From NCBI GenBank assembly GCA_025617745.1, contig CM046853.1, positions 60,650,616 to 60,714,615 of the forward strand: a stretch of DNA of 64,000 bases, given 5' to 3'. A model generated the notes under the pieces. It was not told the DNA's origin and searched no databases. It saw only the letters and a list, made by a program, of their open reading frames with translations. How positions within the stretch are numbered: position 1 is the stretch's first letter; the number at the start of each line of letters is the position of its first letter. A program made the translations under genes and the position numbers. Shown piece by piece: positions 23,656 to 47,648 of the stretch. The DNA is from Heliocidaris erythrogramma (Eukaryota; Echinodermata; Echinoidea; Camarodonta; Echinometridae).

Positions 23656-24090
23656 CATTTTTTTTTGCTGGTAAATTAGCACACTACAAGTGCTATAAAC
23701 AGCATTTCAGGTGCAGTCACTATACATGCCCCTAAAAGTAGCACTTTAGTTTTTACGGTGTACAAGACGTAGAGATGACGTCAAAATAAGACGTCCTCTT
23801 GACGTCTTGCGTTGGTGTAAGTTGTCGTCTTATTGACGTAATTACAGGACGTAAAAAAGACAAAAACCGCGACGTAAATATCACGTAATTTTTAACACTT
23901 TCTGCTATCAGGGAAGAGGAATGAAGACGTAGAGATGACGTCAAAATAAGACGTTCTCTTGACGTCTTGCGTTGGTGCAAGTTGTCGTCTTATTGACGTA
24001 ATTACAGGACGTAAAAAAGACGAAAACCACGACGTAAATATCACGTCATATTTTAACACTTTCTGCTATCAGGGATGTTATACTAATACT

Positions 24091-24147
24091 AATATTACTA
24101 ATGCTACTACTCCTACTTCTACTACTACGACTACTACTACTATACCA

Positions 24148-24185
<38 letters not shown>

Positions 24186-24194
24186 GCTCCTATA

Positions 24195-24240
<46 letters not shown>

Positions 24241-24255
24241 GCTACTTCTACTACT
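24091..24255 (+). repeat. CTA/CTT trinucleotide microsatellite
   Basis: Long (cta)n with ctt, cct and cgt interruptions immediately right of the foldback element. The open frames within it come only from the repeat. Confidence 0.95.
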
Positions 24256-26459
24256 CCTAAGCTGTAGCTTCAGATTCCGCTATTATACTGCATATTTTCC
24301 ATCACTCCAAGAATATTCCAACCAGTGAAAATTTATTGGTGCCCATTAATCCAGCTGGGTGGGATAATTGTTACCATTTAATAGGAAAAAGGTTTATCGA
24401 GACACCGAAGAAGATAGACGATCAAGCTAAGTGTCGTACACCATCCCTTTTGCAATGTGTAAAATGCGGGGGGATCGAGTGTTAAAATCCCCTTGCTACG
24501 ATAGGGTCATCTCTCTCTCTCGCTCTCTGTTTCTCTATCTCTCCTTATTTCCTTCCCATTTTGTTATAGCCATTCGATGGGAGGGAGAGTACCCCTCATC
24601 CAACCGTCGCTAGGACACTCTACAAGATCAGTTTAATCATATAAATGGAGGTGTGCAGGTTGCACCTAGAATTTTAACGCACCTGTAAACATGATAAACG
24701 ACATTTTGAAAGATTCCTCTTTCTGAAAACAACAATACATAATGTGGGTCTCATTCTCCGTAATTGCACGGCCAGGTTTACAATTGTCCTCCAGTCAAAA
24801 AAAGCTGTAAAATAAGATACAAAAGAAGTCACATTCACCACTTTTCATTCGGTTTCTACCAATAGGTCACATTATCCATGAATGCTCCAAGGTAATAAAT
24901 GGACAGGCCCGATAGCACAATAATATACTTAAAAGTCAGGGGATCATTTTTCCTGATTAAAGTGCACCTTCTGGCACTTTCTATACCGTTAACAATCCTA
25001 AGAATTACAAGGAGCATTGTTGGACTAATGCTGAATGAATATGAAACGGACGTGGTCTCCTACATGTTATAAAAATTGGTTTCTCCCTCCAATCTCCTAC
25101 GTGAACTACTTGAACCTTGAATTCTGAACAAGAATACCCAATTAGATGGGGAAAAGCGCAATGCTTAGAGTTGATCATCCATCACCATGCATTGAAAGGT
25201 GGACCTACATGGAATAAATAACCTAGATTATCCTCAATTTTGCCATGGATGAAAGGCGTTGAGAAGACAACTTTTGATAGTGAGACGTAGTGTTCTCTCA
25301 TTCTCCATTCACAGCCCGTAGGTCTTTGTGCAATCATCAAGCATTTTGGGCTATGTCGGGATACTCTCACTCCCTCGTGCCGCCCACGCAAGAGATGACT
25401 GAGGGCACCATGCAAAGTGGCAAATGTATTTTCCATTGGTTAAAATCAAATGGAACGAAAAACAAAAGCCTTTTTTATCTTCGATTTATAACACTAATTG
25501 TACTCAAGGTGAATTATTTTGTTGAGATACCGTATGACGTGTCACCATAGTTCGTTTGGTCTCTGTCTGTTTAACCAAGAGAAGTATCATTATCATCTCC
25601 CATGGTATACTGGTACATTGCATTACTTAGTCCGACTCCTACTGATTGAAGACATCACACAAAGATATTCAAGCAAGCTTAATACCTCAATTTCGGAAAT
25701 TAAACGGTTTAAGACCCTCCTACATGTCATATGGAACTGTTACCAGTGCATCTGAATTTGGACCAGCGCCAGTGTGCTTTCGTGGTTTTGCGGTTTTCAG
25801 TATATGAAATTATCATATAGCTACATGCAGGAAAAAATGATATCTCCTATCTTTAGACACTATTGGGCATTAATAAGCATGGTTACTTTTTCAAAAAGTA
25901 ATTCCTTTGTGTTATGGTGGACTGTAACCTATTCTAGATTTGCTTTTGTGACCGTCCTTTCTCACTATGTTTACGCTACAATGCAATTCATTTATTTTAG
26001 TGATGTATCACTCATAATTTTACGCTCATTTTGTTTATATCATCTGAAAAGAAAGTGGGGAATGTGATAATAAAGAGACATAAACGAAGTGAAAATCAAC
26101 TTCTGGCTATTTGTCTAAAATAGACCAGGATTTTAGACTCACTAAATGTACACACATAAAAGTAGCAAAGCGACATCATGGAAATGAGATTATATGCCAC
26201 GAAAAGTCTATAAAAAGGGAGAGGGAAAGCGCTATTCGTTATCATGGTATGGTGGGCATGGGTTTTCAAGGGGGGGGGGGGCAGAAACTGGGGGTATTTG
26301 ATGTGGATACCTAGAAAAGGATTTATCACTGATATATAAGAAGACTGATAGAGATATTATACTCCATCAAACTTCCCAATGTCTCTCTTGAGTACGACTC
26401 TTTGACATTGATTACATGAATAATGCAAGACGTTGTTTGCGAAGGCCGCCAATAACCCT

Positions 26460-45476: not shown

Positions 45477-45704
45477 GTCAAAACCCACTTTATTTGCTCG
45501 CCAGTTGAAAGAGAACCATAGATGAGCGACTAGGAGAACTCACGCAAATCTTTACGTGTGGGACTTAGCAAGAGGGCCTGGCCATGAAGGTGACTGTGGG
45601 ATTATATCTGTGGGCTTGCATTCTGGGATACGTCACGTGGGGTGGAGCTGCACTACCAACCGTCCTAGGAAAAGAACTCGTAGTTACTGAGAACGATGGG
45701 CCAG
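45477..45704 (+). other. Exon 2 of the TRH-type gene (5' UTR plus signal peptide)
   Basis: A pyrimidine-rich tract ending ttcattgcag precedes 45477 and makes a strong acceptor. The exon has 107 nt of leader, then the ATG at 45584, and ends at 45704 before gtacag. It encodes the first 40 residues plus one base: the signal peptide and a short linker (ELVVTENDGP). The presence of untranslated leader downstream of a good acceptor implies at least one further upstream exon. Confidence 0.8.
45522..45533 (+). promoter_or_regulatory. Three-codon upstream ORF in the TRH-type leader
   Basis: The only ATG in exon 2 upstream of the main start is followed by AGC GAC TAG, giving Met-Ser-Asp-stop, 50 nt before the main ATG at 45584. 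A minimal uORF like this can lower initiation at the main start or allow reinitiation. The effect is inferred. Confidence 0.45.
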
Positions 45705-47648
45705 GTACAGTTCAAATCATTATCAGTTTAAAGATACAGTTGAGTACATTGCGAAAGATTTTGGGAAACGTTTTTTTTTTTAGTAGTATATAACCACTAT
45801 TTTCAAAGTTATTGATTTTTTTTTTTAATTTAACTGGATATATTCGTGATTATCAACTTTATTTCGTCAATATTCGTTTGAATAGATTACGAAGTGTTAC
45901 ACAGACAAACCATCACTTAGTAAAATATTTAATGATAATAATACATTTTTCATTTTTGGAATTATGAACCCTATTTCATATTCGGAATTACGAACCGTCG
46001 GAGTAACGAACCTGCGGAAAAACGAACCGTCGGAAAAAAGAAACTTCGGAATTCTGAACCTTCGGAAAAACGACATGTAACCGTTATATATACATTCAGT
46101 CTATATGCATGAATTCACACCAGTGTGTATTTGCATAATATTCTTTTCTATCATTTTCGACGTTGTAAATTCTAATTGTCGGTGAACGCATTCAATTAAT
46201 CGTGATTTCTCTCGCATTTCTCCTGTCAACCTTGCCGATAAATAATTGCAAGTTCATTAACAGAAATTTCAGGACAGAACCCAAGGTCTGCTTCAGTATT
46301 GCCGTCTTGTTCACCCCCGATTATGAGTTGATTGTTGCAATTACATACTTGTCAAACTTGTCACATTTGATTAAAATTAACTAGGCGTGAAATCGTTTCG
46401 TCCGTGATTTTCATCATCTCTAACAATAATTACCTGACTGCGAGGGTGTAGTAGTCGTTGTCAACAAAGCATGGTCACTATCAAGATATTAAATTAAACA
46501 CAATTTTGGTTATTATTTCAGCGTGTGACGAAGCATATGAGTTGGATCTTTGAGGGAACGTTAAAAACGTTCCAACGTTTACAGATTTCGAAATTATGAT
46601 TACTGTGTTCAAATAATGTTAGTCCTAGATGATGCTTTTATCATGAAATTATATCATTAAACGAATGCTTTCAGTTTTGTGGTGATGCTTGGACCATAAC
46701 ATTTTCTGTAAATATTTTGTAGGTCCTAGGTAAAAGCAACATGACTACTTGCACAATGCATGTATCATTAATTATCAACTTATTATACTCTCATATTTTT
46801 TCTGTCCATATGTAGAGATAGCTGACTGGGTGCAGGGAAAAGAAATCCCTCTAAGGCATCAATTTTGGGACGACGTAGCAGAGGAAGCAGAGGAAGAAGA
46901 ACTTGACATGTTGTCCCCCGATTCAGAGAAACGCCAGTACCCAGGTGGCAAAAGACAGTATCCGGGAGGCAAGCGACAGTATCCTGGGGGCAAACGACAA
47001 TACCCCGGCGGCAAGCGCCAATATCCAGGAGGCAAAAGGCAGTTCGTCGGAGGTGAACTTATACCATCACCAGAGCTACGTCAATACCCGGGTGGAAAGC
47101 GTCAATGGCCCGGTGGCAAGCGACAGTACCCTGGTGGGAAGCGTCAATATCCAGGAGGTAAAAGGCAATACCCTGGTGGCAAAAGGCAATACCCTGGTGG
47201 AAAACGTTCGGAAGGCGATCAAGACCTCCTGCCCATGGAAATCCGACAATACCCTGGAGGTAAGCGACAGTACCCTGGTGGTAAACGACAGTATCCCGGA
47301 GGCAAGAGGCAATATCCAGGTGGAAAACGACAGTTTCCTGGTGGAAAGCGCCAGTTCGTCGGCGGGGAAGCACTCGAACAGGAATCGAACATCAACAAGC
47401 GATTCGTACCGGAAGACGACACCATGGACTTCTTTAGGCTAACCCAACTTTATGACACGAACGATAACCAAGATACAGATGAAGGAGAATTAGCTCTAGA
47501 AGATCTCCTGGATGACATCATGGTCGACACGAGGCCAGAGGTGGAAGACCCAAGGGACATGTTACTAGGCAATGTTGATCCAGAAGATGCTCTTGCGTTA
47601 GATTTATCGGCTTTACTTGGAGAAAGAAACCCGGTCAACGGCTGGTAA
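45584..47648 (+). CDS. TRH-type neuropeptide precursor (QYPGamide-type), two coding exons
   Basis: Coding sequence joins 45584-45704 and 46816-47648 and gives a 317-residue preproprotein. The donor (CCAG/gtacag) and acceptor (tatgtag/AG) leave a phase-1 junction that rebuilds a Glu codon. Residues 1 to about 23 are a signal peptide (MKV..., hydrophobic LYLWACILGY). Residues 81-219 hold 16 seven-residue units ending GGKR: 14 QYPG, one QWPG, one QFPG, in blocks of 5, 6 and 5. Known chemistry of this family: convertase cleavage at KR, N-terminal pyroglutamate, and amidation using the second Gly, giving pQYPG-amide and variants. Two QFVGGE segments (116-121, 220-225) lack a following basic pair and probably yield no amide. 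Residues 237-317 are an acidic tail without dibasic sites. The architecture matches echinoid TRH-type precursors; ligands of this type act on TRH-receptor-like GPCRs. The start ATG has G at -3. Identification is confident; peptide processing is inferred. Confidence 0.95.
45705..46815 (+). other. Intron 2 of the TRH-type gene
   Basis: It is a 1,111-bp intron with gtacag at its 5' end and a pyrimidine-rich stretch ending tatgtag at its 3' end. It interrupts codon 41 in phase 1, between the signal-peptide exon and the peptide-bearing exon. It contains a short degenerate minisatellite near 45957-46073. Confidence 0.85.
45957..46073 (+). repeat. Degenerate minisatellite of CGGAATNACGAAC-type units
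   Basis: About six to seven imperfect units of roughly 18 bp follow the pattern (t)cggaat/aaa-acgaacc(gt). Successive versions read ggaattatgaacc, cggaattacgaaccgt, cggagtaacgaacct and cggaaaaacgaaccgt. It lies wholly inside intron 2. Confidence 0.6.
46816..47648 (+). other. Exon 3 coding part of the TRH-type gene (all peptide copies)
   Basis: The acceptor is at tgtag/AGATAGCT. Frame from the exon 2 junction is kept through to TAA at 47646-47648. It encodes a linker (IADWVQGKEI...), the peptide blocks and the acidic C-terminus. The open frame runs upstream into the intron as far as 46749, but that extension lacks a signal peptide and is interrupted by the acceptor, so it is not part of the protein. 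Confidence 0.9.
46935..47351 (+). repeat. 21-bp coding tandem repeat encoding QYPGGKR units
   Basis: Sixteen 21-bp units lie in three runs: 46935-47039 (five), 47082-47207 (six) and 47247-47351 (five). Spacers of 42 and 39 bp encode QFVGGELIPSPELR and SEGDQDLLPMEIR. Third-codon positions vary between units (tac/tat, cca/cct/ccg/ccc, ggt/ggc/gga), so the amino-acid repeat is kept while the DNA has drifted. This is the signature of selection on peptide copies rather than a recent minisatellite expansion. Confidence 0.95.

Follow-up and report, generated by a model that had tools for sequence, protein, structure and literature searches.

Gene structure and predicted peptides

The analysed window, a 64 kb stretch of DNA (C1:60650616-60714615), contains a plus-strand gene with two coding exons, 45584-45704 and 46816-47648, as read and translated from the sequence; positions are those of the window unless given with a contig, and the gene's features and the duplicated stretch are given on the + strand. 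The exons are predicted to join in phase 1, as in the preliminary description, across a GT-AG intron (45705-46815); joined, they encode 317 residues before a stop in a single open frame, the codon for Glu41 being split at the junction with one base in exon 1. The donor boundary, CCAG/GTACAG, follows 45704, and the acceptor boundary, ATATGTAG/AGATAG, precedes 46816. Two related proteins found by database search, P0001 and P0002, continue across the predicted exon junction, which falls at one shared alignment position, and homology to a third, P0003 from Lytechinus pictus, begins at the residue corresponding to it; these alignments agree with the predicted two-exon splice. The start ATG is at 45584 and an upstream in-frame stop is at 45566. 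Coding exon 1 is 100% identical in a second genomic copy of the gene, and the part of this exon at 45477-45583 is probably 5′ UTR. Position 45477 is marked only by a good-looking predicted acceptor (TTCATTGCAG/GTC), which would imply an upstream non-coding exon. A degenerate 16-bp tandem repeat (TCGGAATAACGAACCG) occupies 45981-46073 within the intron.

The encoded protein consists of a hydrophobic N-terminus, an acidic spacer, three repeat blocks and an acidic C-terminal part. Exon 1 covers the signal peptide and the start of the propeptide, and exon 2 the acidic spacer, the peptide array, the C-terminal propeptide and the stop. N-terminal hydropathy reaches a 9-residue maximum of 2.0 at residues 5-17, the hydrophobic region is aligned in P0001 and P0002, and over residues 1-80 the identity to P0001 is 75%. 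On the basis of this hydropathy and of the alignment to relatives, rather than of SignalP, and with an inferred cleavage site, MKVTVGLYLWACILGYVTWGGA (45584-45649) is probably the signal peptide, as had been claimed from the first inspection of the sequence.

Translation reproduces exactly the earlier count of 16 amidatable units, of which 14 are QYPGGKR, one is QWPGGKR and one is QFPGGKR. The array opens with block A, five QYPGGKR units (46935-47039), followed by QFVGGELIPSPELR (47040-47081), a long pyroglutamate (pQ)-type segment that cannot be amidated, has one Arg at its end and is present in P0001 and, as reported, in Strongylocentrotus purpuratus (PMC5860471). Block B (47082-47207) comprises one QYPGGKR, the lone QWPGGKR (47103-47123) and four further QYPGGKR units. 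It is separated by the spacer SEGDQDLLPMEIR (47208-47246), which ends in a single Arg and has an aligned counterpart in P0001 and P0002, from block C (47247-47351), which holds four QYPGGKR units and then the lone QFPGGKR (47331-47351), a unit whose place is conserved in the alignment. The protein is completed by a second long pQ-type peptide, QFVGGEALEQESNINKR (47352-47402), also reported in S. purpuratus (PMC5860471), and by the acidic C-terminal propeptide with the stop (47403-47648), where the only coding difference from the second genomic copy lies. The two longer pyroglutamate-type peptides encoded here, QFVGGELIPSPEL and QFVGGEALEQESNIN, were missing from the first reading and, together with the 16 units, bring the predicted peptides to 18. 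KR precedes 14 of the 16 QxPGGKR units and a single Arg the other two; the latter are the Tyr units at residues 130 and 185, which follow ELR and EIR, so their release would need monobasic cleavage. At both of these positions P0001 likewise carries just one Arg.

By analogy with established neuropeptide chemistry, the precursor would enter the secretory pathway, convertases would cut at the KR and single-Arg sites, a carboxypeptidase would trim the basic residues, the N-terminal Gln would cyclise and the last Gly would be used for peptidyl-glycine amidation. Each precursor would then yield 14 pQYPG-amide, one pQWPG-amide and one pQFPG-amide, along with two long pQ peptides without an amide. 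The predicted peptides would probably act on a TRH-type G-protein-coupled receptor; the many copies may serve chiefly to increase the output of a single ligand, and Tyr, Trp or Phe may all be tolerated at position 2.

Relationship to TRH-type precursors

With a probability of about 95%, the gene encodes an echinoid thyrotropin-releasing hormone (TRH)-type neuropeptide precursor; its orthology, reading frame, peptide units and cleavage motifs are directly evident. A search of a database of 5.8 billion proteins gave four matches (P0001 to P0004), from which the gene's own sequence was absent; P0004, a weak match with 15% coverage and a few QYP words, was excluded from counts. P0001, from Lytechinus variegatus, is named pro-thyrotropin-releasing hormone-like by NCBI and shows 81% identity over 93% of the query, with values of 64% over 99% for P0002 and 75% over 86% for P0003. 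In the alignment with echinoid TRH-type precursors, homology holds without the repeats: once these are removed, the N-terminal 80 residues are 75% identical to P0001 and 55% to P0002, and the C-terminal part is 73% identical to P0001 (59 residues) and 65% to P0002 (78 residues). Compared alone, the N-terminal 80 and C-terminal 81 residues match P0001, P0002 and P0003. The link to the TRH-type family, previously drawn from established knowledge of such precursors, is upheld by this full-length alignment with the L. variegatus protein and by a composition near that reported for the S. purpuratus precursor (PMC5860471). Echinoderm TRH-type precursors are recognised by many Q-x-x-x-G tetrapeptides between mono- or dibasic sites, found here as the 16 QxPGGKR units. 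Long pQ peptides of the QFVGGELIPSPEL and QF(V/L)GGE... types are also present, as in echinoid TRH-type precursors, and P0002 has QFVGGELIPAPEL.

The L. variegatus protein P0001 shares with the window protein its length of 317 residues, the block order, the kinds of spacer and the place of QFPGGKR, and is 84% identical in the alignment, but differs in having six QYPGG, three QYPAG, six QWPGG and one QWPEV, and in carrying QFLGGEPLEQESNIN where the window protein has QFVGGEALEQESNIN. P0002 (328 residues, from a contig of 1122 bases) likewise has 14 QYPGGKR, a QFPGGKR before the last long peptide and alignable ends, whereas it lacks a Trp unit, includes one QFPAGKR and an extra QYVGGKQDYIPSKR, and is 64% identical. 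The S. purpuratus precursor, as described in PMC5860471, is of similar length (316 versus 317 residues), with QYPGG as the commonest unit, a single QFPGG and both QFVGGELIPSPEL and QFVGGEALEQESNIN; it differs in giving 19 rather than 18 peptides, with 10 QYPGG and four QWPGG as against 14 and one, and in containing QWPEV and QFPAG, both absent from the window protein. The vertebrate TRH precursor (Pfam PF05438) also has several pQ-x-P units, six pQHP-amide in human (PMC5627052), but yields an amidated tripeptide where the window protein would yield an amidated tetrapeptide. The window protein scored 18.9 bits against PF05438, under the gathering cut-off of 27.8, as did P0001 (18.8), P0003 (11.9) and P0002 (23.2); one scrambled-tetrapeptide control gave no PF05438 match. 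In the database entry for P0003 (LOC129258037), a reverse-transcriptase fragment (PF00078) is joined to TRH exon 2 and the signal peptide exon is missing; this gene model is probably a wrong fusion.

Genes of this kind are already known and have been in print since 2012, when Rowe and Elphick reportedly described the S. purpuratus TRH-type precursor, and the present sequence adds one member. Precursors of pQ-x-x-x-amide tetrapeptides are described in other echinoderms too, with 12 predicted peptides in A. rubens (PMC4772807), 19 in A. japonicus (PMC6586643) and, for O. victoriae, which has two precursors, 21 in the first (PMC5627052). In a sea cucumber, both the pyroglutamate and the amide of a longer TRH-type peptide are reported to have been verified by mass spectrometry, the tetrapeptides being outside the reach of the method (PMC6586643). 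An amidated QYPG peptide has been the immunogen for an antiserum, and in the S. purpuratus larva Go-opsin occurs in TRH neurons as well (PMC10486798). A meeting abstract reports QYPGamide and states that larval arm growth is inhibited when the precursor and receptor are knocked down (PMC6233258). The listings, abstracts and passages searched contained no receptor assay and no mass spectrometry of the sea urchin tetrapeptides; a 2024 P. lividus paper presents a precursor alignment in its supplements.

Coding nature of the repeat

The motif Q-x-P-G-G-K-R is confined to one frame of the whole 64 kb window (counts per frame 0, 0, 16, 0, 0, 0), and all 16 units are distinct at the DNA level. When all 18 seven-residue array units, taken by position, were compared in pairs, 592 of 748 codon differences were synonymous in the coding frame, but only 10 of 768 and 64 of 786 after shifts of one or two bases. 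This synonymous excess reflects selection acting on the peptide that this frame encodes. A separate chance estimate of about 1e-10 was set aside as biased, since it used only the 14 Tyr units, which had been chosen by their residues.

The synonymous pattern, the conservation of the signal-peptide and C-terminal regions and the existence of a named L. variegatus orthologue together contradict the alternative that the repeat is a non-coding 21-bp minisatellite, open by accident. This alternative is extremely improbable, although the NCBIfam model NF041631 ('KRQAASG repeat spurious translation') is just passed (30.4 against a cut-off of 30) and the genome contains 65 other weak matches to the repeat region, 59 of them with stops. 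Because the non-repeat ends of the protein are conserved, we take the NF041631 score to be a match to the KRQ rhythm.

The weak matches come from a paralogue search in which 125 of 463 candidates were scored. Of its 69 matches, four belong to the complete gene copies, each of which contributes both of its exons, and besides the 59 with stops there are six without. The nearest stop-free match, C1:60487684-60488019, was rejected as a paralogue, being an (AAAAGGC)n microsatellite, and from tandem spacing we infer that the remaining weak matches are repeats. Stop-containing matches form tandem groups at C13:37387827-37391879, C4:33059390-33065296 and elsewhere; these groups look like minisatellites, not paralogues. 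The window itself holds a tandem array at 1-382, with units around the palindrome TTCTTGATATCAAGAA, and two 160-bp tandem copies (96%) beside a long TAC repeat at 23764-24259. A Pfam scan of 8 of the 16 other long open frames in the window gave none above cut-off and two weak matches, the window had no Rfam match at gathering score and no detected tRNA, and a search of solved structures gave no match up to E = 1.

Trp and Phe units

The number of QWPGG units is six in P0001, none in P0002, six in P0003 and one in the window protein, and is reported as four in S. purpuratus (PMC5860471). This variability suggests that Trp can replace Tyr and vice versa, and with 0 to 6 copies in relatives the single Trp unit more likely reflects drift than a special ligand. 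These counts leave unsupported the hint in the preliminary description that the Trp singleton might act differently at the receptor. Exactly one QFPGGKR, by contrast, is present in each of the four precursors, always directly ahead of the final long peptide, although two of these precursors (P0001 and P0003) are congeneric, so that the count does not amount to four independent cases; one QFPGG is also reported in S. purpuratus (PMC5860471). While the constant place of the Phe unit would fit a view of the single Trp and Phe units as distinct ligands, kept for a receptor action of their own, the varying QWPGG number makes such a role rather unlikely, as does position 2 of the QxPGG units: it is always aromatic, which points to Tyr, Trp and Phe being able to stand in for one another. 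It is the Phe unit, not the Trp unit, that is worth testing functionally.

A second, inverted copy of the locus in the assembly

When the genome (1,064,227,859 bases in 26 contigs) was searched, exon 2 had a second match at C1:61287718-61288550, on the opposite strand of the same chromosome-scale contig and about 590 kb away. In a protein search of the genome, which scored 125 of 463 candidates, each of the two loci matched with its pair of exons, and the scored candidates included no further full gene. The coding sequences of the two copies differ by one synonymous change, in codon 238 (47408), and the proteins are identical; the introns differ by three substitutions and indels. The repeated part of the window, 39701-64000, recurs in inverted orientation from C1:61295523 downward and continues past the window. 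Its edge, C1:60690316 (window 39701), aligns to C1:61295523 downward, and the alignment was directly followed to C1:60722988. With gaps and pieces under 400 bases excluded, there are 440 substitutions in 31,847 aligned bases (1.38%), ranging from 0.1 to 5.2% per 2 kb bin, and many indels. Beyond the direct alignment, five of six sampled sites match at the mirrored place, one in pieces only, the farthest pairing C1:60867615-60870115 with C1:61053961-61056790; for the sixth site, C1:60785615-60787615, scoring 40 of 2068 candidates brought up no second copy.

At C1:61295523 the duplication breaks off against a run of exactly 500 N, a scaffold gap that begins with the adjacent base; on the window's side, 264 kb of sequence was read and contained no such run. 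For the sequence left of the window edge of the duplication, all 11 candidates were scored and there was no second long match, the other ten being short. Since homology ends exactly at the 500-N gap with no long match to the left of the edge, and since the patchy divergence, the many indels and the unchanged protein are as expected for alleles of an outbred sea urchin, the second copy is most likely the other haplotype of the same locus, retained in the assembly. Against this, true duplications can also cause assembly breaks, one sampled site has no second copy and one is matched only in pieces, and the sampled sites did not extend to the far end of the arm. Sea urchin genomes are moreover reported to be heterozygous at about 3 to 5% (PMC11310861), and the rate of 1.38%, gaps excluded, falls below this range.

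A real and recent inverted duplication of ~180 kb or more would instead place two TRH genes, encoding the same protein, in each haploid genome. It would account for two full genes, each with both exons, on one chromosome-scale contig, for arm collinearity that spans at least ~180 kb on the window's side, with five of six sampled sites in mirrored order, and for a substitution rate lower than typical sea urchin heterozygosity. A brittle star is reported to have two TRH-type precursors, but these differ in sequence, and S. purpuratus, A. japonicus and A. rubens are each described with one (PMC5627052). Given also the exact end at the scaffold gap and the allele-like combination of patchy divergence, many indels and an identical protein with one synonymous change, such a duplication is quite unlikely.

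Implications

Counting genes in this assembly would yield two TRH genes, although the true number is probably one. If the duplication were true, peptide dosage would be raised by gene copying on top of the internal repeats. For the family as a whole, the locus adds a clean gene model with exon structure to a known group of neuropeptides, in which the Tyr/Trp make-up shifts fast between sea urchins while the lone Phe unit and both long peptides persist.
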